A DNA stretch of 21,103 bases from a virus: positions 1 through 21,103 of IMG/VR virus record IMGVR_UViG_3300009506_000211. One strand, 5' to 3'. A program made the translations under genes and the position numbers. Of this stretch, positions 2,853 to 18,418 are shown in pieces; positions within the stretch are counted from its first letter, which is position 1, and each line of letters opens with the position of its first letter. The notes below the pieces were generated by a model. That model was given only the letters and a program-made list of their open reading frames with translations. It searched no databases and had not been told where the DNA came from.

Positions 2853-5800
2853 ATGAAAAAACTACTTTTTATATTTACCTTTTTACTAATTGCCTTAGGA
2901 TTATCTGCCCAGAGGATATTTCCTAATGGTATTGGTATAGGAATATATGTTATCATTGACTCGGTAAAGATAGATGGTAGTGGTATGGTATTCTATGCTG
3001 GGGGAGTTGCATATGCTACAGATGATGGAGGTGGGGGCACAGTTGGTGATTCATCTTTTGTATCTGCTTTGATTGGACAGATTAGGGAATATACTACAGA
3101 TGCCGGAGTTGATATAGAATATATGATTGTCGAGGATAACACAATTCTATTCAATGAAGTCACTGCACCTTCAGCTCCTTCGGCAGATGATGGTATATTA
3201 TATATGGATCAATCCGATGAAAAAATATATTTTAAAACTAATACGCAAACATATGATTTGACCGGGGGAGGAGGTACAGTTACAAGTGTAGCTGCTGGTG
3301 ATGGAATGGACTTTACTTCTATTACCACAACTGGTTCCGTAACTATGGGAACACCCAGTACATTGGATTATACTACAACCAATAGTGTATCGGGAACTAC
3401 ACACACCCATGCATTAAGCCTATCAAACTTTAATTCAACCACACCAGGTTTAGCACCTGGTAGTGGTGGTGGAACCACTAATTTTATGAGGGCGGATGGT
3501 ACTTGGGCAGCTCCACCAGGTACTAGTTATACATTCCAATACTCGATTGCAGAATCAGGGGGTACAGTTAATCTTTCTGGTGATGTAGCCAGCCCTGGTA
3601 ATACATATTATTATGGTACTAATGGTTCAGGAACAAGAGGATGGTATACATTCCCATATACTGGTACAGTAACATCAGTTGCTGCTGGAAATGGTATGAG
3701 TTTCACTACCATTACTGGGAGTGGCAATGTTACTCTTGGAACTCCGAGTACTTTGACCTTATCTACGTCGAACTCGGCATCCGCTGGTACACATACTCAT
3801 CAGCTTAGTATTGCGAATTTCACTGCTAGTACTGCAGGACTTGCCCCATTATCTGGAGGAGGTACAGCTAACTATCTAAGGGCGGATGGAACATGGGCTA
3901 CACCTCCTGGCTCTAGTTATACTTTCCAATACTCTATTTCAGAATCTGGTGGTAATGTAAATTTAACTAATGATGAATCAGCTCCTGGTAATAATGAATT
4001 TTATGGGACTTCAGCTGCAGGTACTAAAGGATGGAGAAATCTAAATACCATTACTGTTCTGGGTACAATTGCTACAGGTACTTGGCAGGGATCAGTTATA
4101 GGGGCAACTTATGGGGGTACTGGGTTAACAAGTATATCTACTTTACTTAATTCAAATACAACTAAATCAGATGTAGGACTAAGTCTAGTAGAGAACACAG
4201 CTTTATCAACTTGGTCAGGTAATACATCTATAAGTTCTGTGGGTACAATAGGTACAGGTACATGGAATGCGAATTCTATTGGGGATAGTTATATTGATAA
4301 TAATATTACCTTAGATAATCTAACCCAGATAACTACAAGGGCAGCTACATCATTAACCGGTACTGCTTGGAGGGTATTTTATGTAAATGGTACTGGTAAT
4401 GTAACGGAGTTGGGATTAGGTGCTAGTGGAACTTACCTTGGATCTAATGGGACCACTTCAGCTCCTACATGGAGTACCCCTTCAGGTTCCGGAGATGTAT
4501 CTAAAGTAGGAACTCCAGTTCAATATCAGGTTGGTGTATGGACAGGAGATGGTACAATTAAAGGAGATGCGGATTTTACCTTTGATGATAATAATGTTAC
4601 TGTAACTGGGTTTATGCAATCATCAGTAACTCTTGCATCTAATCCCGCTTTAACCGGGGGTCGAGCTACACCTGCTGCTAATGGGATCATATTTGAGGGA
4701 ACTACTGCAGATGCAATAGAAACGCTTTTAACCGTGGCTGATCCAACATCTTCAGATAAGACTTTAACATTACCAAATGCTACTGGAGATATTGCTATTA
4801 CAACATCTGCAATGACTGGTACCTATGATGGTAATAATTTTGGTGGGGGTGCAATAGGTGCAGGCGATATATTATATGGGTCTGCTGCTGGTACTATTTC
4901 AGAATTGGGTGGAGCCGTAACTGGTAATGCTTTAATATCTGGGGGAACCAGTTCAGCCCCTTCATGGGGTAAGATAGGATTAACTACTCATGTTAGTGGT
5001 AATTTACCAGTAACAAACCTTAACTCAGGTACAAGTGCAAGTTCATCAACCTTCTGGAGGGGAGATGCTACATGGTCTGCTGCAGTAACTTCGGTAGCTG
5101 CAGGCAACGGATTAGATTTTACAACCATTACTGGAACCGGGTCTGTAACCTTAGGTACCCCAGGTACTTTAACATCGGCAACATCTAATGGGGTTACTTC
5201 AACAAGTCACACCCATGCCATAACTACGGGAATAGCTAATACCAATATAGTAAGAATAGATGCAACAGATGTAGCTACTGGGAGGTTTCCACAGTTTACA
5301 GCTAATGGGTTGGATGGGTTAACTGCTGCAGAAATGTTAACAGCAATAGGGGCTGGTACTGGAGATGGTACAGTAACATCTGTAGCTGCAGGTAATGGGA
5401 TGTCTTTTTCATCGATTACAAGTGCTGGTTCAGTTACTCTTGGAACTCCTTCAACTTTGACATTATCTACAACAAATGAAGCGACATCAGGTACACATAC
5501 ACACGCCCTTTCAATTTCTAATTTTTCTTCAGGAGCGGCTGGTTTAGCTCCTGCTTCTGGGGGGGGTACAACGAATTATTTACGAGCGGATGGAACGTGG
5601 GCTGCTCCTACAGCAGCTCCGACAGATACAGCGGTTCTTGGAACTCTTACAAATTTGAATACCGATACATCAGATATAATGTATTTTGGTTTGATTGGCG
5701 CGTCTAATATGGACGTTGGGGAGCACATAGAAGCTGGTATTTATAGGAATACTTCTCCTAGTGATACGATTGTTCTTATCTGTACAGTAACTGATATGAC

Positions 5801-6047
5801 AGGAACAACTCCTTCTCTAGATTTTAATATAGAGAAGCACACGACATTACAAAGTGGTTCTTCTTCAAATTTATTCCCTTCAGATCAAACAGTAACTGGT
5901 AATAGTGGAACTGGCGATACAGATTATTTTCCAGCGAGTACGTACCTATTGCCTGGGGAGGTGGCGTGGATTGATATATCCTCGTATACTGCTGGAGATG
6001 CAATATTTATCAAATTATGTGGGCAATGGCAAAATCGATCGTTTTAA
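2853..6047 (+). CDS. Fibre-like adhesin with Q-rule signal peptide, 130-residue repeats and HxH motifs
   Basis: The 1064-residue protein opens with MKKLLFIFTFLLIALGLSA|QRIF, a signal peptide with Gln at +1. Residues 141-270 and 271-400 are two gap-free tandem repeats, and shorter copies start at about 743 and 839. Each repeat starts with a TVTSVAAGNGM-like strand, continues TLGTPSTL, contains a THTH or SHTH motif (184-186, 314-316, 786-788, 882-884), and in copies 1, 2 and 4 ends with a GLAP..GGG, RADGTWA segment. Residues 400-740 hold other fibre motifs (GTIATGTWQG, GTIGTGTWNA, DKTLTLPNATGDIAIT). This composition is that of trimeric phage tail fibres, where HxH motifs can bind metal ions in the shaft, as in the T4 gp37 tip. 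The last 130 residues look like a beta-sandwich head that may bind the receptor. The signal peptide is unexpected for a virion fibre. It overlaps the next gene by 22 bases. Confidence 0.8.
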   Translation: MKKLLFIFTFLLIALGLSAQRIFPNGIGIGIYVIIDSVKIDGSGMVFYAGGVAYATDDGGGGTVGDSSFVSALIGQIREYTTDAGVDIEYMIVEDNTILFNEVTAPSAPSADDGILYMDQSDEKIYFKTNTQTYDLTGGGGTVTSVAAGDGMDFTSITTTGSVTMGTPSTLDYTTTNSVSGTTHTHALSLSNFNSTTPGLAPGSGGGTTNFMRADGTWAAPPGTSYTFQYSIAESGGTVNLSGDVASPGNTYYYGTNGSGTRGWYTFPYTGTVTSVAAGNGMSFTTITGSGNVTLGTPSTLTLSTSNSASAGTHTHQLSIANFTASTAGLAPLSGGGTANYLRADGTWATPPGSSYTFQYSISESGGNVNLTNDESAPGNNEFYGTSAAGTKGWRNLNTITVLGTIATGTWQGSVIGATYGGTGLTSISTLLNSNTTKSDVGLSLVENTALSTWSGNTSISSVGTIGTGTWNANSIGDSYIDNNITLDNLTQITTRAATSLTGTAWRVFYVNGTGNVTELGLGASGTYLGSNGTTSAPTWSTPSGSGDVSKVGTPVQYQVGVWTGDGTIKGDADFTFDDNNVTVTGFMQSSVTLASNPALTGGRATPAANGIIFEGTTADAIETLLTVADPTSSDKTLTLPNATGDIAITTSAMTGTYDGNNFGGGAIGAGDILYGSAAGTISELGGAVTGNALISGGTSSAPSWGKIGLTTHVSGNLPVTNLNSGTSASSSTFWRGDATWSAAVTSVAAGNGLDFTTITGTGSVTLGTPGTLTSATSNGVTSTSHTHAITTGIANTNIVRIDATDVATGRFPQFTANGLDGLTAAEMLTAIGAGTGDGTVTSVAAGNGMSFSSITSAGSVTLGTPSTLTLSTTNEATSGTHTHALSISNFSSGAAGLAPASGGGTTNYLRADGTWAAPTAAPTDTAVLGTLTNLNTDTSDIMYFGLIGASNMDVGEHIEAGIYRNTSPSDTIVLICTVTDMTGTTPSLDFNIEKHTTLQSGSSSNLFPSDQTVTGNSGTGDTDYFPASTYLLPGEVAWIDISSYTAGDAIFIKLCGQWQNRSF
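3273..4052 (+). repeat. Two direct tandem repeats of 390 bp (130 residues) in the fibre gene
   Basis: Units at 3273-3662 and 3663-4052 encode residues 141-270 and 271-400. They align without gaps over the whole length, both contain the SVAAG start, the THTH motif and the SYTFQYSI..SGG segment, and differ at many synonymous sites, so the duplication is not recent. Confidence 0.85.
5079..5252 (+). repeat. Third, shortened copy of the fibre repeat
   Basis: Residues 743-800 repeat the first half of the 130-residue unit (AVTSVAAGNGLDF to SHTHAIT). The RADGTW half is missing and the sequence runs into a different stretch at about residue 800. Confidence 0.7.
5367..5609 (+). repeat. Fourth copy of the fibre repeat
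   Basis: Residues 839-919 repeat the unit from GTVTSVAAGNGM through THTHALS to RADGTWAAP. The SYTFQY third is replaced by the C-terminal beta domain. Codon choice here is more T-ending than in copies 1 and 2. Confidence 0.75.
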
Positions 6048-6763
6048 TAGGATTGTTATGTCTTTTTCCATTTTTAGTTAATGGGCAAAGAGTGTTGCAA
6101 CGTTATCCAATTTATTCTGGAGCTCCTCCTGATTCTGTAGGAACAGCGGAGTTATGGTTTCAAATGGAGAACAATAGCGCTGATTCATCTGGCAATGCTA
6201 GAGATGCAACTTATTCTTGGAATTACACAACTACTGATGCTCCGCAAGGTAGTTATTGGCTGACGTCTAATGGGTCGAGTTCTGACTTTATTCCTTTAGA
6301 TTTTACTCATAATGACACAATCACTATGTTTTGTCGTATGCGATATGATGCTACATCTGTGACTAATTTAGCGGAATGGGGATTTTTTGCTCCAGATAAT
6401 TCTGGATGGGTATGGAGATTAGATGCGGCGAACGATGCTATAGATTTTGATAAAAAAGTGTCAGGTACTACTTATTATTCTAGGTCTAGTAATGGTGTTC
6501 TTGACATAAATACTTTATTTAGTTTAGCAGTAGTTGTAAGAGGTCAGCATACAAGATTTTTCGTAGATGGTTCTAAGGTTGCTTCTCCAGATAGCGTCAC
6601 TACTTCTGGTGCGATGTCCCCTAGTGATTCTCTTACTATTACTTCAATTTTATATGGAGAGTTTGACGATTTTCAGTTCTATAATAGGGCTGTGCCTGAT
6701 GATAGTATTCTTTATTTGCATAATCACGTAGGTTATATCCTTAAATATTTACCAGCGGAATGA
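6026..6763 (+). CDS. Secreted LamG/concanavalin-like carbohydrate-binding protein
   Basis: The ATG at 6026 gives 245 residues starting MAKSIVLIGLLCLFPFLVNG|QRV, again a signal peptide with Gln at +1; the ATG at 6017 would add three residues. The mature part is one LamG-type (Laminin_G_3-like) jelly-roll: an opening strand with AELWFQME, the DSSGNARDATY turn, a central strand TITMFCRMRYD, a VVVRGQHTRFFVDGSKV hairpin and the closing GEFDDFQFYNRAVPDDSI, which matches the D-d-v-r-i-Y-n-r-a-L hallmark of this family. Such domains bind glycans or proteins at surfaces. Together with the fibre before it and the large protein after it, it forms an adhesion block. The final TGA overlaps the next ATG (ATGA), so translation is coupled. 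Confidence 0.8.
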   Translation: MAKSIVLIGLLCLFPFLVNGQRVLQRYPIYSGAPPDSVGTAELWFQMENNSADSSGNARDATYSWNYTTTDAPQGSYWLTSNGSSSDFIPLDFTHNDTITMFCRMRYDATSVTNLAEWGFFAPDNSGWVWRLDAANDAIDFDKKVSGTTYYSRSSNGVLDINTLFSLAVVVRGQHTRFFVDGSKVASPDSVTTSGAMSPSDSLTITSILYGEFDDFQFYNRAVPDDSILYLHNHVGYILKYLPAE

Positions 6764-9700
6764 AAAAGTTAATATTTATATTGTTTGTTTTTATTTCGGT
6801 GTTTGCGAATGCTCAGTATTACGTAGTCCAGAATGGCCAGTTTATTACTACAGGTTCTGGTCAATATGTAAAAACATCTGGAGGTGATTATACACCTGGA
6901 CCCTCATTTCAAGATAATTTCGATTCGTATTCCAATGGTTCTGAGCTTGCAACTCAGGGTTATTGGGATGAAGAAAGGGGTACTATAAGAGTTTATAATA
7001 CAGGTTCTGATGGTGAGCCTTATCCAGACGTTTCTTCGACAGAAGTTGCAGTTTATTATATAGCTTCTATAGCAGCAAATCAATATAGTCAAGTTACAGT
7101 AACAGCTTTAGCCGCATCTTTGGCTATAGGGCCTGCTGTAAGATGTCAGGGCGGAACAGGTTATTATTATGGTTGGTATTCTACACCTACTGCTTCTTAT
7201 CTTTTTCGTAATGATAATACCATATGGACTCAGTTAGCCATCGGGACTGGTTGGAGTGTTAATGATGTAGTTAGATTGGCTGTTGCTGGTGATACTTTAT
7301 ATTGTTATAGGAATGGGGTATTAGATACATCTGTAGATACGGATGGGAAATATACAGATGCTTCTGCTGGTAAATTGTCTTCTGGATATGTAGGTCTTGC
7401 TGCTTATGGTTCTTCTACATCTACAAGATGTGATTCTTGGTCTGCTTGGACATTTACCTCTCCTGCTCAACCCCCTGGGACTACTGGTCAAGGTACCTTA
7501 TTATTTTATCAGGATTTTGAAAGTATGGCACTAACAGAGGCAGTTACATCAACTCATGTAGATACAATTATGGGTATTGGGGAGCCGAGTTTTAGTTTTC
7601 ATATGACTGATAATCCAGTTAAAATATTAAATGAAACAACAGCTGGGAATTATATGAGAGGATGGATGGATGCAACTACTACAGGTGCAAGTGGTGGTTA
7701 TGAAATGTTTAAAACATTAAGAGGAACTGATAGTCCACATTATGATCCTGAAAGTACTGGATGGACAGTACCTACAAAATATAATGATAAAACAGAATTA
7801 TGGTTTGGTTGGGCTGTAAGATACGAAACAGGATTTGAGGAAGCTTTGGATGGAAAGACAGGGTTTAAATCATATGGGAGTGAGGCAATGTGGGATTATG
7901 ATGGATCACAGGGTTGGGAGAATTTTGTTGATGGGTATGCTATAAATACTACATATGATGGGAACTATCCTTCTACTACTTACCATGCTAATATGGTTTA
8001 TCGTAAAGAAATGCATTATGATTATGGATATAAAACCTTATGGGAAAATGGATGGCCTAATGGTAGTTATATAGCTGTAGATGACGATTGGCACCATATT
8101 GGACTTAGAATAGTTTTAGATCCAAACCCACCGGATTCTATAAATGGATTTCTGGAATATTTTTACGATGAAGTATTAGTCAATAGGCAGGATACTTTAT
8201 TTTTGAGAACAGATGATTCAATTCAAATTGACTGGGCTTGTTGGAGATGGTATCCAAGTAGTTCTACATCAGCACCAGATGTAGATTGGTATTCTGATAT
8301 AGATAATTTAAGTATTTTTGAATTTTCTAGTGGGGATAGTACTTATACTGGAACTGAAAGAACTCCAATAGGGGGAACTGTTGATTTTCCAGGATGGCCT
8401 ATGGATGAAGATACTACCGGTTGGGGCGATTTTGATGAGCCTCTAGATCCTCCCACTCCCCCACCTTCTTATGCTCAGTTTGATATTGCGCATGATTTCT
8501 ATGTTTATACTCCTGAAGGACAAGGCAATGGAGATAGGATTATAGAGCTTTCTTATAATAGGTTTTGGGAACCTCTAGGTACAATAACATATACAAAAAT
8601 ATATGGATCTAGTGATTTTGCTTTTAGTAGTTCTGATTCTATTTTGTATGCTACTACTGATCTTACACCAGGCTCTTATACAGTTAGGTATTTAATAGAG
8701 GACAGTGATCAGATTTGGGATACAGCTTCAGTTTATATAACTGTAACTTCAGATGCAGATAACCACTATGTTGATTTAGATACTTTGACAGATCCAGCTT
8801 ATATTCCAATAGTTGATGGGGATTATACTTATTTAGAAAGAGGTTCATCTTTTGCATCTGCGCAGTATCTTTATATCAATAGTATTGACAACTGGGTATT
8901 GGGGGCGTACGGAGATGGGGCTAGACCTCATTTGGAGGTGAAGGAGCGTTATCTTTCTGGGCGTGGAGTATTTGATGTTTATAATTGTTCAAATGCCACA
9001 GTTCGGGATATCGAAATTTATAATAACAACGGAGTATCTTATTACTTTACAATCTATCTTAGTGGTACTTCTGATGGATTTGTTTTAGATAACTGTGAGG
9101 TTCATGGCAATAGCACTTATGCCTTTTCTACAATTCGTGTAGCTGGTCCTATATCTGGGGGCGCTATCCGTAATAATATTTTACATGATACTTATGATGA
9201 TGGTGTTCAAATATATGCCAATTTAGCTGGAACATCTACATCTAATAGGTTTATTTGGGAGAATAATTGGATTCATACTGTAAATAAAGCTAGTGGGGGC
9301 GGGGATTGTATTCAGTTTTCTAATTCAGATTATCCGACAGTTACTAGAGATTCTCGTTATAATCATTTTAGGTATAATCTTTTTGATAGGACTAATAATG
9401 CAGATAAGTATTCTTTATTGTATGAGAATGGATATACATATGCTACAGCTGACATAGGAACTTTAATAGAGTATAATAGAATTGAGGGCTATCGAGGGGC
9501 TAATAGAGTTTCTCAAAATGGTGTGGCCTTAGGCAACGCTAGAGGGACAATTTTTAGATATAATACGATTCATGGTACTGGACGAGGATTGGCTCTTTGG
9601 TCTGATAATGATGGGGGTTTAACAAATAGTTATATTAAAATATATGGTAACCTATTTGAGGATTGTGATACAACTTCTATTAGATTACATACAGCTGATA

Positions 9701-11988
9701 CCAATGGAGATGCAGATTATACAGAAATTTACAATAACACTTTTGTTAATTATGCTGAGGGCGGTGGTGAAGCTATAGATATCGATGCTGGAAACATAGG
9801 AACAGATATAAGGAATAATATTTTTTACTATGGGACTAGCGCATCTAATTCTATAGTTGGTACTGTTGGAACAGAAGATTATAATATATTTTATCCTGAT
9901 GCTCTTAGCTATAGTTATGGTACTCATTCTGATACGTTGGATCCAAATTTTATTACAGGTTTTGATAGTGACTACGAGATTACTACTTCTAGTAATGCTT
10001 ATAAGTTTGGGACAGCCGTTGGTTTATCAACAGATCGGTGGGGTACTTCTTGGTTAAATCCCCCTAGTGTAGGGTATAAAGAGTATGTAGATTTTCAAAT
10101 AGCGCCATCTGTTACAATATATAAATTTATTGATTTTAGCGAGCTTACTCCTGGAGCTACAAGTGTATCTGAGTTTAATACATCCTTTGAAACATCTCTT
10201 ACTAGGACTGCCGGGGGTGTAGATAATGATTCTATTAAAATAGTTACTCAGGATACAGTTTGGAGTGTAACATATCCTGCTGGGTTAGCTGCAGATGAAG
10301 GAGTACAATATACTGGATGGCCTTATTACAATGGTACAGATAATACTGACGATACACTTACTTATGTGAATCATACGTTTTATATGAGGCTTACTGGAGA
10401 CTGGCAGTGGGAATCCGGTGGAGCGTGTAAGATGATAGGGTTGGGAGGAAGAGATGTTGATGATAGTCCTGGTCCAGCAGGGGGCATTTATGGGCCTACT
10501 TGTATTGATAGTGTTCCTTATTACGAAGCTGATATGGGATTTAGTACTAGAGGTCAATGGACAGAAGATAATCCCGGGCTTGGTAGATTAGATGATATAG
10601 GCTATTATTTTTATTCTCATAGTGATAGCATGGATTGGAAAGATTGCGATGTTTCCGTTACTTATGGGGAGACTTTACTTCCTGGTTTAACTTGGGAGGT
10701 AGGTAAATGGTATAAGATAACACAAAGATTTATTCTTAATAGTGTTTCGTCTCCAGGAAATGCGAATAATGATGGAATTCTGGAATGGTTTAGGAATGAT
10801 ACTTGTTATATTTCTCGTCAGGTAGAGATTTTTAGGAAGTATGAGGATGTAAAGATTGATTATCTTTATTACGCTAATTTAACAAGGCCGGATGCTTCTA
10901 GAACAACTGATCAGCAAATTGAGTATGATGATATTTGTTTGTGGGTAGATGATAATCGTTCAGCTATCGGTTTGGGTAATGTTCAAGTTTCCCCTGATGT
11001 TGGTTCTGACAATAGGCTTACAAATGATACGGTTGTTGTAGTATATTCTAATGATTTCGATCATCTGACTTCAAATTCTGTTTATCCTTTGGATAGTCTT
11101 AATGCCGATTATCCATATCGTCCTCCTTATTTTCCGAATTTTCAGAATTATAATAATGTTTATATTTATTCTTTGAGCGGCAATAATGCTTTAAGATGGT
11201 TCTTCGCTGATGGAACAACATCTAGTCAAAGTACTCATGGTGCGAAGTGGAGAGGCTTTTTTACTCAGGATTCTGTAGCTTATGAAGAGCTTTATTACTC
11301 TTATGATCTCTATGTACCTACAGGTAATTATGTAGATGCTGCTGATGAAGTAACTACTGGTAAAGTTCCCTCTGTTGGAGGACTTAGTGCATGGGTTTAT
11401 GATTTAACTCATACATTCCCATATTATGACGAAGGTTTTTCTGCGGGTATTAGATTTAAAAGTAATGTTTCGGGATCGACAATTTATTTAACTAATTATC
11501 TTTACACGCATAATTTAATTACTGCTGTAGGAGGTACTCAGTATTATTGGGCGAGTGTACCTTTTATGGATCCAGATAATTTGAGTAATGTTTATTATTG
11601 GCCATTAAATACTTGGGTAAATATAACCGTTAGGATTGTAATGAATGATGTTGATCCGCAGGTTCCGGAAGCGAATTGGAATAATAATGATTTAGGTGAT
11701 GGATCTACAAATGGTCTTTATCAAGTATTCATTAATGGAAAGTATTCAGCATCTATTGATACAGTTAGATGGAGAAATTTACCTGGTATCGGAGTTGATG
11801 TTATGAGGATGTATTCTGAATGGAATGATGTTACAGATGGTGATCAAAAATGGTATACAGATAATCATTACTTCTGGTATTACGGCGATGCTGTTGATCC
11901 TCCTAAAGGCAATACTGAATTATATTATCCGGGGGATACATTAATTTTTCCACAATCCTGGAGTCATGCTGACTTTGGTTTTTGGTAG
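6760..11988 (+). CDS. Giant secreted multidomain protein: beta-helix plus PL14-like concanavalin modules, candidate depolymerase
   Basis: The 1742-residue protein begins MKKLIFILFVFISVFANA|QYYV, a Q-rule signal peptide. In order: a short beta repeat (QNGQFITTGSGQYVKTSGG, 24-42); a concanavalin/LamG-like domain (about 48-235); a second, larger sandwich resembling polysaccharide lyase family 14 (about 245-525), with ELWFGWAVRYETGFEEALDG and the closing DWYSDIDNLSIFE; an Ig-like linker (about 570-665); a right-handed parallel beta-helix (about 668-1105) with rungs such as VRDIEIYNNNG, AIRNNILHD, FIWENNWIH, FRYNTIHGT and EIYNNTFVN; a third sandwich (about 1115-1400) with WYKITQRFILN and EYDDICLWVDD; and a fourth (about 1424-1715) with YYSYDLYVP and TWVNITVRIVMN. 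Beta-helices and PL14-like folds are known in capsule and alginate depolymerases, so polysaccharide binding or cleavage is inferred. Catalytic residues are not assigned. There is no T9SS C-terminal domain. It ends TAG TAA. Confidence 0.75.
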   Translation: MKKLIFILFVFISVFANAQYYVVQNGQFITTGSGQYVKTSGGDYTPGPSFQDNFDSYSNGSELATQGYWDEERGTIRVYNTGSDGEPYPDVSSTEVAVYYIASIAANQYSQVTVTALAASLAIGPAVRCQGGTGYYYGWYSTPTASYLFRNDNTIWTQLAIGTGWSVNDVVRLAVAGDTLYCYRNGVLDTSVDTDGKYTDASAGKLSSGYVGLAAYGSSTSTRCDSWSAWTFTSPAQPPGTTGQGTLLFYQDFESMALTEAVTSTHVDTIMGIGEPSFSFHMTDNPVKILNETTAGNYMRGWMDATTTGASGGYEMFKTLRGTDSPHYDPESTGWTVPTKYNDKTELWFGWAVRYETGFEEALDGKTGFKSYGSEAMWDYDGSQGWENFVDGYAINTTYDGNYPSTTYHANMVYRKEMHYDYGYKTLWENGWPNGSYIAVDDDWHHIGLRIVLDPNPPDSINGFLEYFYDEVLVNRQDTLFLRTDDSIQIDWACWRWYPSSSTSAPDVDWYSDIDNLSIFEFSSGDSTYTGTERTPIGGTVDFPGWPMDEDTTGWGDFDEPLDPPTPPPSYAQFDIAHDFYVYTPEGQGNGDRIIELSYNRFWEPLGTITYTKIYGSSDFAFSSSDSILYATTDLTPGSYTVRYLIEDSDQIWDTASVYITVTSDADNHYVDLDTLTDPAYIPIVDGDYTYLERGSSFASAQYLYINSIDNWVLGAYGDGARPHLEVKERYLSGRGVFDVYNCSNATVRDIEIYNNNGVSYYFTIYLSGTSDGFVLDNCEVHGNSTYAFSTIRVAGPISGGAIRNNILHDTYDDGVQIYANLAGTSTSNRFIWENNWIHTVNKASGGGDCIQFSNSDYPTVTRDSRYNHFRYNLFDRTNNADKYSLLYENGYTYATADIGTLIEYNRIEGYRGANRVSQNGVALGNARGTIFRYNTIHGTGRGLALWSDNDGGLTNSYIKIYGNLFEDCDTTSIRLHTADTNGDADYTEIYNNTFVNYAEGGGEAIDIDAGNIGTDIRNNIFYYGTSASNSIVGTVGTEDYNIFYPDALSYSYGTHSDTLDPNFITGFDSDYEITTSSNAYKFGTAVGLSTDRWGTSWLNPPSVGYKEYVDFQIAPSVTIYKFIDFSELTPGATSVSEFNTSFETSLTRTAGGVDNDSIKIVTQDTVWSVTYPAGLAADEGVQYTGWPYYNGTDNTDDTLTYVNHTFYMRLTGDWQWESGGACKMIGLGGRDVDDSPGPAGGIYGPTCIDSVPYYEADMGFSTRGQWTEDNPGLGRLDDIGYYFYSHSDSMDWKDCDVSVTYGETLLPGLTWEVGKWYKITQRFILNSVSSPGNANNDGILEWFRNDTCYISRQVEIFRKYEDVKIDYLYYANLTRPDASRTTDQQIEYDDICLWVDDNRSAIGLGNVQVSPDVGSDNRLTNDTVVVVYSNDFDHLTSNSVYPLDSLNADYPYRPPYFPNFQNYNNVYIYSLSGNNALRWFFADGTTSSQSTHGAKWRGFFTQDSVAYEELYYSYDLYVPTGNYVDAADEVTTGKVPSVGGLSAWVYDLTHTFPYYDEGFSAGIRFKSNVSGSTIYLTNYLYTHNLITAVGGTQYYWASVPFMDPDNLSNVYYWPLNTWVNITVRIVMNDVDPQVPEANWNNNDLGDGSTNGLYQVFINGKYSASIDTVRWRNLPGIGVDVMRMYSEWNDVTDGDQKWYTDNHYFWYYGDAVDPPKGNTELYYPGDTLIFPQSWSHADFGFW

Positions 11989-13340: not shown

Positions 13341-14867
13341 ATGCCGAATGCCGCTAAAGTTCAGTTTAACGTAAAGAATTTCACTCCCGGTATTTCAGAT
13401 CCCCAGCCGGCTATCTTTTACGTATTAGGGATTACAAAAAGAGGTCCCGTAGAGCAACCCGAATTGAACGTATCCCTGGTGAACAGTTGGGCCAACTTTG
13501 AAAGGGTATTTGGAGGTCTGATGGAAACATCAGATTTTCCATATCTTTGTAAGAGAGCCTTATCAAGGGGTGCAAGGTTGAGGATATGTAGGGTAGATGC
13601 TGCATCTACTGCTGCAGTTAAGGCAACCGCTAAAAACATACAGAATGGGGATGGTTCTCCTGTGACCCTTTTTACGGTTCAGCCTAAATACAAAGGGGCA
13701 GACTACAACAATTTTACAGTTGAGATTAAAGCTGCTTCTAATGGGGATTCCAACTATTGGAATATGGAGTTGGTCCATGCAAATGAACCTGAGCTGAATG
13801 AAACCTACCAGAATATCCCAGCTTTCATTGCCGATACTGCAAATAATCAAACCTGTTTGGATGAGGTAAAATCTGCATCCAGGAATTTTGATTTCACATA
13901 TGCTGATGCATCTACTGCTGTATTACTGGTTCCTGCCGTTGCTGCAGCTTCTGCCTTTACTGGTGGGGTTGATCCTTCTGGACATGTTGCATCTGACTAT
14001 TCAGGGGCTATGCCCGAGTTTGATGATGTTGATGATGGGATTGCCATGGCAGTACCCGAGCAGGATGATGATGCAATTAATGCTGCGGGTATCACATATG
14101 CTGCAAGTAGACAGGATATGGTATTCTTTGCCCATTTACCCAATTCAATCACCACTGCTGCTGGACTGGTTACAGAAAGAGAAACTGTGGGGAATGATTC
14201 CAAGTTTGGCGCTTTCTTCGGTGGGGGTATTAGGGTAAGAGAAGAAAGGACTCTCCAGGAAAAAGCAATGTCGGAAATGGGAGATGTACTGGGGGTTGCC
14301 GCCTATGTATATAATAACTATGGGCTGTGGTATTCTATTGCGGGGCAAACCAAGGGAGCGGTTCAGGATGCATTGGGGGTTGTTACCAATTTTGGTACCC
14401 CAGCTGGATTTGCAGATCTGAATACACTGGCAAATGCCCAGATCAATATGTTGGTGGTTAAGAATGGAATTACCCAGCTTTCTGGGAACTTCTCTGCACA
14501 ACTGGCTAATAACCAGGAGAAGTTTTTAAACGTGGTAACGCTGGAGCTTTATCTTAAGGCTACACTGAAACCCATTCTTGAAGGTTATCTTGAAGAACCC
14601 AACGACCCCATTACTTTCAAGAAAATTTATTACCATGTAACTCCTTTCCTTGATAGGTTGGTATCTCCTGCTTACCGGGCTCTTTATAAGTATGAGTATT
14701 ATGGAGACCAGGATGCGAATACTATCGATGACCTTCAGATCAATGATCCTGTGGATGTACAAAACGGAAAATATAAAATCAATTTGAAAATATGGCCCAT
14801 CCCATCCATGCAAGAATTAACCTTTAATCTGATGCTTGTACAGGGAGAAGGGGTTTATATTGACTAA
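13341..14867 (+). CDS. Contractile tail sheath protein
   Basis: The 508-residue protein matches the Phage_sheath family. The N-terminus has FTPGISDPQPAIFYVLGITK, then GPVEQPELNVSLVNSWANFERVFGG, the usual threefold pattern of an N-terminal domain whose strand links subunits, and LCKRALSRGARLRICRV. The middle (about 230-420) contains the SRQDMVFFAHLP helix-strand segment and the alpha/beta sheath core, and the C-terminal domain (about 440-508) ends with INLKIWPIPSMQELTFNLML, the strand-exchange arm of sheath proteins. Sheath subunits stack around the tube and contract on infection. It uses more CTG, CCC and GCC codons than its neighbours, consistent with a highly expressed major structural protein. 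It is followed 21 bases later by the tube gene. Confidence 0.95.
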   Translation: MPNAAKVQFNVKNFTPGISDPQPAIFYVLGITKRGPVEQPELNVSLVNSWANFERVFGGLMETSDFPYLCKRALSRGARLRICRVDAASTAAVKATAKNIQNGDGSPVTLFTVQPKYKGADYNNFTVEIKAASNGDSNYWNMELVHANEPELNETYQNIPAFIADTANNQTCLDEVKSASRNFDFTYADASTAVLLVPAVAAASAFTGGVDPSGHVASDYSGAMPEFDDVDDGIAMAVPEQDDDAINAAGITYAASRQDMVFFAHLPNSITTAAGLVTERETVGNDSKFGAFFGGGIRVREERTLQEKAMSEMGDVLGVAAYVYNNYGLWYSIAGQTKGAVQDALGVVTNFGTPAGFADLNTLANAQINMLVVKNGITQLSGNFSAQLANNQEKFLNVVTLELYLKATLKPILEGYLEEPNDPITFKKIYYHVTPFLDRLVSPAYRALYKYEYYGDQDANTIDDLQINDPVDVQNGKYKINLKIWPIPSMQELTFNLMLVQGEGVYID

Positions 14868-14888: not shown

Positions 14889-15350
14889 ATGGCTAAAGTA
14901 GCAAATCCAAGGAAAAGGTTTAATTTCTCCATCCAGATTAGCCCGGACCCAATCAACCCGTTCTTATTTCAGAAGGTAACGTTACCTGATGCAGAAATTG
15001 AACAAGTTGCCCATGGTGATACCAACCATGATATTAAAACCGCAGGCCGTGTATCCTATGGGAACATAGTATGTGAGAAACTCATGGTTTCTGACCAGGC
15101 CGACAACTATTTGTGGAACTGGTTTGATACATGCCAGAGCTCTACAATTGGAGGGGGAGCTCCGCCAGAAATTTACAAGAAAGTTATTACCGTGGTTGAG
15201 TTTGCAGAGGACGGAGTCACTGTACTTAACACTTGGGTAGCTACCGGTGTATGGCCTTCTTCGTTACCCGGTCACGAGCTTGACCGAATGGCTTCTGAAA
15301 ATACCATTGAAAATGTAGAGTTCTCGGTAGATAAACTTCAGAAGGTTTAA
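14889..15350 (+). CDS. Tail tube protein (T4 gp19-like)
   Basis: The 153-residue protein is the normal size for a myovirus tube subunit. It starts MAKVANPRKRFNFSIQISPD, has the FQKVTLPDAEIEQVAHGDTN segment in which the tube family places its first strands and the loop that contacts the neighbouring subunit, and then NYLWNWFDTC and the last strands VITVVEFAEDG and ENVEFSVDKLQK. The subunits form the hexameric inner tube inside the sheath. As in the sheath gene, codons are GC-richer than in the surroundings. A strong intrinsic terminator follows 25 bases after the stop, separating sheath and tube from the chaperone and tape-measure genes and probably setting their relative levels. Confidence 0.9.
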   Translation: MAKVANPRKRFNFSIQISPDPINPFLFQKVTLPDAEIEQVAHGDTNHDIKTAGRVSYGNIVCEKLMVSDQADNYLWNWFDTCQSSTIGGGAPPEIYKKVITVVEFAEDGVTVLNTWVATGVWPSSLPGHELDRMASENTIENVEFSVDKLQKV

Positions 15351-15453: not shown

Positions 15454-16242
15454 ATGGACCCAAAGAAATTAGTAGAAGGTAATCTTGATACGATAGAACT
15501 CACTGTTCCTTCAGGATATAAAGTAACTATTCGTCAACAGACTGGTGATGACGATGATATTGCAACTAGTACCCAATATATAGCTAAGAATGAAAACCTT
15601 AATAGATTTGTTCAGGCTATCATAGTAAGTACAGAATTTTCTAATGGGAAACAATTATCTTTAGATAATATTCTGGATATGAAATTAAGAGATAAATATT
15701 TTATAGTAATATCCAGTAGAATATTTTCATTGGGCCCAATTCTTAAATTTGAATATGAGTGGCCTGATGGTACAGTTGCAGAGTATGAAGAGGACTTAAC
15801 GAATTACATATGGGATTATAGTTTACCTATAGGGGAATTTCCTTTTAAGGGACATGAGCTTTATAATCCTTATAGATTAAAACCACACCCCCGTGGTAAT
15901 GATTTGGATATGGAATTTACTATTAGTACCGGTAAGGTATTCAAATTTACTTTTATTAATGGGATAGGAGAAAATTATTTAATGACATTACCCATTGATC
16001 AACTTAGTAAAAATGCAGAGTTAAAGGCCAGGGACCTCCGTTTTCAAATGAAGGATCAATGGGTTAAAGTACAAAATTTTAAAACCTTTACCGCTAGGGA
16101 GATGATGGAAATTCGTAAGAATGTATTTGATATAGATGAAGTGGTAGAAGTTCTTACAGAGATTCCACACCCCAGAACTGGAGAAACCGTTCAGTATCCT
16201 GTAATAGGGAACAGTGATTTTTTATTTCCTCGGGAGCTCTAG
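15454..16242 (+). CDS. Tail assembly chaperone, 0-frame (gpG-like) product
   Basis: The 262-residue protein lies between the tube and the tape measure, the standard place of tail assembly chaperones. The N-terminus carries a beta-strand TIELTVPSGYKVTIRQQTGD, then an acidic patch DDDD, a helix ENLNRFVQAIIVSTEF and DKYFIVISSRIFSLG. The second half holds GTVAEYEEDL, EFTISTGKVFKFTFINGIG and a helical end ENYLMTLPIDQLSKN, and ends soon after the TTTTTTA heptamer. The heptamer at 16218-16224 allows a -1 shift to an extended form of 311 residues. Chaperones of this type bind the tape measure while the tail grows. A T4-like baseplate hub or assembly protein is the alternative. The start at 15454 gives a normal N-terminus without a Shine-Dalgarno motif. 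Confidence 0.7.
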   Translation: MDPKKLVEGNLDTIELTVPSGYKVTIRQQTGDDDDIATSTQYIAKNENLNRFVQAIIVSTEFSNGKQLSLDNILDMKLRDKYFIVISSRIFSLGPILKFEYEWPDGTVAEYEEDLTNYIWDYSLPIGEFPFKGHELYNPYRLKPHPRGNDLDMEFTISTGKVFKFTFINGIGENYLMTLPIDQLSKNAELKARDLRFQMKDQWVKVQNFKTFTAREMMEIRKNVFDIDEVVEVLTEIPHPRTGETVQYPVIGNSDFLFPREL

Positions 16243-16266
16243 AGACCGAATTTTTCAGAGTCTCCC
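16218..16266 (+). promoter_or_regulatory. Programmed -1 ribosomal frameshift signal: slippery heptamer plus stem-loop
   Basis: The heptamer TTTTTTA (T_TTT_TTA) at 16218-16224 is in the correct phase for the 0 frame (gat ttt tta). After a 7-nt spacer, GGGAGCTCT (16232-16240) pairs with AGAG (16257-16260) and CTCCC (16262-16266), a 9-bp stem with one bulged T and a 16-base loop. Slippery site, spacer and stem are all in the range known for -1 frameshifting; the heptamer is the same as that of HIV-1. Confidence 0.75.
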
Positions 16267-16388
16267 AATATAATTTACACTTTACATTTTCTGAATATAA
16301 ATCTTTCACTATAAGGCGTAGGAAAAAATTCTTAGAACTCTGCGATCTATACGATAAAAAGGTTGAAGAAATTTCCAAAAAGAGATAA
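16224..16388 (+). CDS. -1 frame extension of the tail assembly chaperone (gpGT-like T part)
   Basis: In the -1 frame relative to the gene at 15454, reading continues from ATT at 16224 to TAA at 16386-16388, adding 54 residues after Leu257. The added part starts ISSGALETEFFRVSQYNLHF and ends with a basic helix, RRRKKFLELCDLYDKKVEEI, with no ATG start of its own. The stop lies two bases before the tape-measure start at 16391, so the extension fills the only gap in the region exactly. In tail chaperones of lambda-like, Mu-like and other long-tailed phages the frameshifted T part binds the tape measure. This assignment needs frameshifting at the heptamer, which is inferred. A TAG read-through is less likely because its frame stops at 16315. 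Confidence 0.7.
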   Translation: MSSGALETEFFRVSQYNLHFTFSEYKSFTIRRRKKFLELCDLYDKKVEEISKKR

Positions 16389-16390
16389 TA

Positions 16391-18418
16391 ATGGTAGGAG
16401 GTTCTAGTCTTGGTATAGGGTTAACTTTATTTTTAAGAGACCAGTTTTCTGGCCCTGCAGCCAGGATAAAGAATTCGTCTAGAGAATTGCAACAGCAATT
16501 CCAGATGATGGAAGACCAATTACGTTATCAGAGAAACCTAAATGCTGGATTAGCTTTTGGTGGGGCTATGGTATTAAGGGGATTTGGTAGGCAAATAAAA
16601 AAGGCAGCCGATTACCGTTATGAGATGGAGTTTGTAAAATCCATTACTGCAGCTAATACCGCAGAACAAAAACAACTTGCTAAAACTGCAGAGACTCTAG
16701 CTGGTAAAACTATGTTCTATCCTCAAGATATTGCTGAGGGCATGAGGTTCATGGCTATGGCGGGTATGGATGCAGAACAGGTGCTTCATAATATTTCCGG
16801 AGCTGTAAATCTTGCCGGTGCTACTATGTCTCAGTTAGGAGGTAAGGGTGGGGCTGCTGACATCATGACTAACGTCATGAAACAATTTGGTATAGATTTT
16901 AAAGATACCATATCAGTTGCAGACAAATTGGCATACGGAGTTACTCGTGCTAATACAAACTTATTTGACTTAGGTGAAGCACTAAAATATTCAGGTGCTA
17001 CTGCCATGGATTTAAATGTTACCCTGGATGAGTCCGTTGCTATGGTAATGGCATTAGGTAATGCTGGTATGCAGGGATCTATGGCTGGTGTTGCTATGGA
17101 AAATGCCATGAGGTATATGGCTAGAGCATTCTCAGACTTTGCTTCTGGGCCAAGTAGGAAGGCACTAGCAGAAATTGGGTTAACCGTTACAGATGTGACA
17201 GACCAGGCTGGTAACCTACTTTCCATGACTGAGATCATGACTAGGTTTGGTAATGCCATAGATCAGAATTTTGGGTCTGGGATGAATGTTCAGAAACAAG
17301 CCATTCTTCAAAATATATTCGGTGTTAGAGGGAAAAGGGCAGGATCATTATTCTTAAGAAACCTTAAAGAATTCCAAAAATTTAGCGGGGATGTTGCTTC
17401 TCAATCAATTGGACATTCTGGTAGGATCATGGAGGATATGATGTCTACCTTTAAAGGGGAAATGGATAAGCTCATATCAGAATTCCAATCTATGTGGATT
17501 GCTATAACCACTGCGATTGAACCAGTAGGTAAAGCAATAGTGAAAGTATTAAGAGTTATAACAAAGGCCCTTTCATTTACATTTAAGATTCCATTTCTTG
17601 GGGAATTTCTTGCAGGAGGGGTTATTGGGTTCGTAGCTATTAGGACTGCAGCTTTTGCATATACAGCAGTAGTTAAGGGACTACAGTTGTTACATATGCA
17701 AGCTAAGCATTCTGCAATAAACATGTCTACCTCTGGTATAGCTGGGTGGAATGCTATGTCTGCTGCAGCCGCTAGGTATGCAGGTATAGTTAAATCTGGG
17801 GCTATCAGCGAAATGGTTGGGGCTGGTATGATTAGAGGATTAACATTAAATAAGGCTGGTAGGATAGTAGCTCAGAGTAGTAAAACTGGAATGAAAACCT
17901 TTGTTAGTGGAGCTGCAGCTGCTGGAGTAATGACTGGGGCTTCTAGGGTGGTTGGGGGTAAAGTAATTGCTAATACTGCTGGAAGATTTGCTCTTGGTAA
18001 ATTGGTTGGAATACTTGGGGGACCTTTAGGAATGGCTTTAAGTTTTATTCTTCCTGCAGCTATTACTGCGATGGTAAGAGCATTTAAGGGTAATAAAGAT
18101 TCTTTGGATAAAAATACAGATGCCCTTAATAAAAAAGGTGAAAGTGCTATGTCCATATTCTCTGGTCAATCAGACCAAGTAATGAGGTTTACAGATCTCC
18201 AAGCTCCAGCTCTTCAGGTAGTAGGGGCAGCTGCATCTGATAGGTTACAGAATAACCTTATGCAGGAGAATATGGCTTATTACCAGAAGCAGTTAACTGA
18301 TATTCTTAATAAAGAGATGAACCAAACAATAGTAATTAATGTGGCTGGGGAAGAACAATTTAGACAAACTATTGAAAGGTATATGTTTGATAACGTGGAT
18401 AGAATAATAGGACAATAA
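16391..18418 (+). CDS. Tape measure protein (TP901 core)
   Basis: The protein has 675 residues. Residues about 70-250 form the conserved TP901-type tape-measure core: YEMEFVKSITAANTAEQKQL, a helix LAKTAETLAGKT, MFYPQDIAEGMRFMAMAGMD, then NISGAVNLAGATMSQLGG, ADKLAYGVTRANTNLFDLGE, ALKYSGATAMDL and ENAMRYMARAF. Two hydrophobic stretches follow, at about 395-420 and 530-560, typical of tape measures that enter the host membrane. The C-terminus carries the NQTIVINVAGEEQFRQTIER strand-helix. Tape-measure length sets tail length: at about 0.15 nm per residue this predicts a tail near 100 nm. The start follows the end of the chaperone extension by two bases. It has a coiled-coil N-terminus and is Ala/Gly/Met-rich. 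Confidence 0.9.
   Translation: MVGGSSLGIGLTLFLRDQFSGPAARIKNSSRELQQQFQMMEDQLRYQRNLNAGLAFGGAMVLRGFGRQIKKAADYRYEMEFVKSITAANTAEQKQLAKTAETLAGKTMFYPQDIAEGMRFMAMAGMDAEQVLHNISGAVNLAGATMSQLGGKGGAADIMTNVMKQFGIDFKDTISVADKLAYGVTRANTNLFDLGEALKYSGATAMDLNVTLDESVAMVMALGNAGMQGSMAGVAMENAMRYMARAFSDFASGPSRKALAEIGLTVTDVTDQAGNLLSMTEIMTRFGNAIDQNFGSGMNVQKQAILQNIFGVRGKRAGSLFLRNLKEFQKFSGDVASQSIGHSGRIMEDMMSTFKGEMDKLISEFQSMWIAITTAIEPVGKAIVKVLRVITKALSFTFKIPFLGEFLAGGVIGFVAIRTAAFAYTAVVKGLQLLHMQAKHSAINMSTSGIAGWNAMSAAAARYAGIVKSGAISEMVGAGMIRGLTLNKAGRIVAQSSKTGMKTFVSGAAAAGVMTGASRVVGGKVIANTAGRFALGKLVGILGGPLGMALSFILPAAITAMVRAFKGNKDSLDKNTDALNKKGESAMSIFSGQSDQVMRFTDLQAPALQVVGAAASDRLQNNLMQENMAYYQKQLTDILNKEMNQTIVINVAGEEQFRQTIERYMFDNVDRIIGQ

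Follow-up and report, generated by a model that had tools for sequence, protein, structure and literature searches.

Introduction

Tail assembly chaperones made in two forms by frameshifting are already known, and so are slip sites built on six T residues. In phage lambda, gpG and gpGT are the short and the -1 extended form of the chaperone, encoded upstream of the tape measure gene (PMC5009743), and in phage P2 gpE and gpE+E' are produced by a -1 shift on T_TTT_TTG (PMC3931495). Phage T4 has been described as lacking G/GT frameshifting, an exception among long-tailed phages (PMC5009743). Its gp26 and gp51 are listed as hub assembly chaperones, of which gp51 is essential, has an unknown function and is absent from the particle (PMC3004832).

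In this study, we analysed a 21.1-kb viral contig, referred to here in its full length as the window, which carries a contractile-tail module. One of its genes almost certainly yields two tail assembly chaperones through a -1 programmed ribosomal frameshift. The locus is like that of P2 in that the tail is contractile, the gene stands just before the tape measure gene and a T6 heptamer is used in the same phase; however, gpE has about 91 aa against 262 here, the P2 heptamer ends in G, and the likeness drawn here is one of arrangement. Lambda differs in being a siphovirus, in its much shorter protein and in its shift site, G_GGA_AAG, which is not of the T6 type. What raises the interest of the present case is the family-wide evidence, together with a link to T4 gp26 and gp51.

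Organization of the tail module and the proposed frameshift cassette

The tail module of the window includes genes for a neck protein, sheath, tube, the chaperone, the tape measure and a LysM-type baseplate protein. The features discussed below are these:

13341..14867, + strand: tail sheath protein (contractile tail)
14889..15350, + strand: tail tube protein; presumed partner of the extension
15454..16242, + strand: 0-frame gene, gpG-like tail assembly chaperone, 262 aa; stop TAG at 16240-16242
15454..16388, + strand: predicted gpGT-like fusion, 311 aa; the 0 frame supplies residues 1-257 and the -1 frame the remaining 54
16218..16224, + strand: slippery heptamer T_TTT_TTA; P site TTT, A site TTA
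16224..16388, + strand: -1 frame extension, 54 codons (ISSGALE...ISKKR) and TAA at 16386-16388
16225..16231, + strand: 7-nt spacer from heptamer to hairpin
16232..16266, + strand: predicted 3' stimulatory hairpin, 13 bp, with a bulge at 16261, 16241 unpaired and the loop at 16246-16252; from RNAfold and compensatory changes
16391..18418, + strand: tape measure protein, ATG at 16391; presumed client of the chaperone

The order of sheath, tube, chaperone gene (15454-16242) and tape measure places the gene between tube and tape measure, as in the lambda G/GT type. The 0-frame codons over the heptamer are GAT_TTT_TTA, which is the X_XXY_YYZ phase. Also as in the lambda type, this in-phase heptamer lies near the 3' end of the gene, and the -1 frame continues to near the start of the tape measure gene, its TAA ending two bases before the ATG. 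Folding with RNAfold gave an outer stem of 9 bp (16232-16240 with 16257-16266, single bulge at 16261) and an inner stem of four pairs (16242-16245 with 16253-16256), with a dG of -15.6 kcal/mol and a z of -3.4 against dinucleotide shuffles, 1/200 of which were equally stable; an Rfam search returned no match above threshold. An earlier note on this DNA, made from the letters and their open reading frames, had described TTTTTTA in the right phase within a gene ending at 16242, a 7-nt spacer, a 9-bp stem interrupted by one bulge, and an open -1 frame reaching 16388, two bases short of the tape measure gene. All of these details were recovered, and RNAfold added the four inner pairs.

Shine-Dalgarno sequences are absent from the window genes, which we take to be consistent with a Bacteroidota host. 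Their absence would also make an upstream Shine-Dalgarno stimulator of the shift unlikely. Upstream of the tail module lie two very long ORFs, 2853-6047 (1064 aa, with repeated TSVAAG-type motifs) and 6760-11988 (1742 aa), which are likely to encode tail fibre or tailspike-like proteins.

Conservation of the slip site among relatives

Relatives were sought with the tube protein, the chaperone protein and their alignment as queries. This gave 76 distinct cassettes, which come from viral contigs, from gut phage records and, as the only finds of one genome scan, from two MAG contigs. These two are labelled Spirochaetaceae (L041) and Dysosmobacter (L042), and are prophage or phage contigs binned with them. 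The contig of one relative (L023) stops within the extension, and another (L035) has an internal stop in the chaperone frame at 3436-3438, far upstream of the slip site, which is either real or an assembly error.

The frame break, with the -1 frame open beyond the 0-frame stop, is present in all 76 relatives. In 74 relatives the extension is complete; past that stop, all 74 are open in the -1 frame and closed by stops in the other two. T_TTT_TT[A/C/T] occurs in 69/76 (62 TTTTTTC, 4 TTTTTTT and 3 TTTTTTA), and in 65/76 the stop codon ends 18 nt from the heptamer. The seven exceptions carry T_TTT_TAC (three), T_TTT_TAT (one), T_TTC_TAC (two) or T_TTC_TTC (one); all of them retain the P-site tetramer T_TTY and with it a tRNA-Phe able to re-pair on TTT. 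Because the canonical heptamer is missing there, the shift in these seven would be of the P-site only.

The codons themselves are constrained. NNT_TTT was found in 30 of 31 representatives that are <50% identical, where codon usage in these genes predicts 11.6 (exact tail of 1.8e-13, uncorrected for shared ancestry), and codons 255-257 (GAT TTT TTA) form the top synonymously conserved triplet of the 256 tested, with a ratio of 1.75 over a background of 1.03. The arrangement is thus conserved in relatives under selection, as in the lambda G/GT type. The earlier note had looked to homologues with a broken -1 frame or with a heptamer lost through synonymous changes as the cases that would speak against a frameshift. 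No relative has a broken -1 frame, and the heptamer is changed only in the seven that keep T_TTY. Its view of the heptamer as unusual is right for TTTTTTA, a minority variant confined to one clade, but not for T6 sites as such, since P2 uses T_TTT_TTG in the same phase and the slip-site type is therefore not new.

The downstream hairpin and the level at which slippage would occur

The clade of the window has 17 members (support 100/98). Its hairpin starts 7 nt past the heptamer and has up to 14 pairs, a 7-nt loop and compensatory changes. Paired cells amount to 86.6%, compared with 33-68% in slid controls, and doubly changed cells number 15, compared with 1-6 in slid and 5.0 in shuffled controls. 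As the hairpin bases also encode protein, coding constraint enters into the covariation test, a point that the slid control covers in part. The same structure fits seven members outside the clade, but those were selected for folding in that way. In more distant clades no hairpin was found at the corresponding place, so the hairpin is not universal.

The six-T run in 69/76 relatives would also suit transcriptional slippage, in which mRNAs with one base extra (or two fewer) are translated into the extension in the ordinary way. We consider this very improbable: seven relatives have only T5 or T3 and keep the extension, the T6 run is held in one phase while Z varies (C, T, A), and the hairpin, with its compensatory changes, is 7 nt away, a spacing that suits the ribosome. 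Because relatives without T6 keep the -1 frame, tRNA slippage on T_TTY is favoured over polymerase slippage.

The -1 extension as a protein

The extension is conserved at the protein level among the relatives, with the pattern F..SQ..L..F.E....RRRKKF.EL...Y, and is predicted to form three helices (pLDDT 84). On its own it gave no convincing family or fold match. Might it be a separate small gene, with its own initiation codon or reinitiation after the stop? In some T4-like phages (S-CRM01 and Vibrio D482) the homologous small ORF does have its own annotation and begins at the gene 26 stop or close to it, and an ATG is found somewhere in the extension of 40/74 members of the window family. However, only 17/74 have an ATG within the first 25 codons, the extension of the window has no in-frame ATG, GTG or TTG, and a separate gene leaves the codon constraint at the slip site unexplained. 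We consider independent initiation even less probable than slippage by the polymerase. The idea that the break is a sequencing error in the T run or a broken gene, to which the homopolymer at the break might lend itself, is refuted by the identical break in 76 distinct sequences from independent contigs, none of which has one open frame, and can be dismissed.

Frameshifting by the ribosome remains the preferred explanation. The site, its phase, the hairpin, the conservation, the coding extension, the chaperone-like fold and the gene order can be read from the sequence, and from them we infer that the shift occurs, how efficient it is and which partners each part has. Most ribosomes would terminate at 16242 without leaving the 0 frame and so make the 262-aa gpG-like protein. 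A minority would pause over T_TTT_TTA with the hairpin 16232-16266 ahead; the tRNAs would slip back by one base, and reading of the -1 frame to 16388 would give the 311-aa gpGT-like protein. The helical tail of 54 residues would be made only in this way. If the parts act as in lambda, the N-terminal portion shared by both forms would hold the tape measure protein and the tail would recruit the tube protein, both forms leaving before the virion is completed.

Identity of the chaperone

The model of the 262-aa protein is confident (pLDDT 93.4). Among solved structures it is matched best by the HK97 tail assembly chaperone (PDB 2ob9) over residues 8-99 at a Z of 6.5, followed by YqbN of a prophage (3klu) over residues 151-229 at a Z of 5.3; unrelated folds reach 3.8 at most. 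Each of the two spans only part of the model, at 8-14% identity. Given the modest Z of 5.3-6.5, the fold shared with known members of the lambda G/GT type is supportive rather than conclusive. A Foldseek search of viral models indicated a fold shared with the T4 gp26 family, the hits carrying the labels T4-like baseplate hub assembly protein (E 2.1e-11), gp26 and gp51-like. Gene order and predicted fold together support a gpG-like tail assembly chaperone, in agreement with the gpG/gpGT-like pair proposed in the earlier note.

Current profile libraries barely recognise the chaperone of this family. The window protein alone had no significant match in Pfam or PHROGs, and a PDB sequence search with the family gave none. 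Among 27 relatives, five matched PF12322 (best 0.0024) and nine matched phrog_150 (best 1.3e-5), both of which are T4 gp26 families.

Relationship to T4 gp26 and gp51

With hhalign, the window family matched T4-type gp26 at E 0.0011 in one alignment and not significantly in another, and cyanophage gp26 at E 2e-5. Pairwise comparison of the window-family fusion directly with T4 gp26 or gp51 was not significant; the link to T4 runs through cyanophage and Aeromonas Ah1-type sequences. From these sequence and model comparisons, the window-family protein and T4 gp26 are probably distantly related.

A putative frameshift cassette is also apparent in the intermediates. In T4-like cyanophages, in Aeromonas phages Ah1 and G2 and in Vibrio phage D482, T_TTT_TTC stands at the end of gene 26 and an open -1 extension follows. 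All 83 distinct gene 26 sequences of the cyanophage type have T_TTT_TTC in phase, each followed by at least 30 further -1 codons, and in 82/83 the heptamer is 6 nt from the end of the stop. The fusions of the window family and of the cyanophage type align over 273 columns, including the extension, at E 3.1e-6 (controls: 0.046 for the best of 40 shuffles, 0.42 when reversed). Cyanophage gp26 and its small ORF thus share the proposed frameshift arrangement of the window family but differ in the distance to the end of the stop, 6 nt instead of 18 nt, and the identity is 18%. Cyanophage records (L132, L134-L136, L143-L222) list the extension as a protein of its own, either hypothetical or gp51-like. 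In the open-licence literature, we found no paper on programmed frameshifting in cyanophage tail genes and none linking T4-like gp26 to both a frameshift and a tail assembly chaperone.

The cyanophage-type fusion aligns with T4 gp51 from end to end, across the shift point and the extension, at E 1.1e-19. T4 gp26 and gp51 are paralogues (E 9.2e-20), gp26 stops where the extension starts, and T4 gene 26 has no T6 site. In the T4 record (L122) the two genes lie at 4803-5429 (- strand) and 5480-6226 (+ strand), gp51 bearing the C-terminal extension that others reach by frameshifting. As the cyanophage gp26 fusion aligns with gp51, itself a paralogue of gp26, T4 probably encodes the short and the long chaperone form as two genes, judging from these alignments. 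T4 gp26 would correspond to the short form and gp51 to the whole fusion, in two separate genes unlike the single gene of the window.

The T_TTT_TTC signal in T4-like ocean phages suggests why T4 has been thought to lack frameshifting. We think it likely that the whole T4 superfamily has a G/GT system, with gp26 as the short form and the frameshifted extension of gp26 as the ancestral long form, kept in cyanophages and in the window family; in T4 and its close relatives, a duplication would have replaced the frameshift, leaving gene 51 as the long form with the extension in frame. The long-standing oddity that T4 is described as lacking G/GT frameshifting, and its gp51 as essential without a known function, then becomes directly testable. 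If gp26 and gp51 are the short and the long chaperone, well over a thousand phage records carry a misleading label, "baseplate hub", and the gp26 and gp51 annotations of cyanophages should be joined. For the large family of uncultured contractile-tail phages to which the window belongs, the sequence case for frameshifting is already strong.

Two further loci showed variations. One relative (L017) carries an HNH-endonuclease-like ORF (3683-4060), possibly a homing element, after its -1 extension and before its tape measure gene. In Flavobacterium phage immuto (L040, 4560-4960), a gene labelled "baseplate hub subunit" lacks a T6 run. Behind it the +1 frame, equal to a -2 shift, stays open for a long stretch and encodes a similar extension, which makes the gene a candidate for a different kind of shift.
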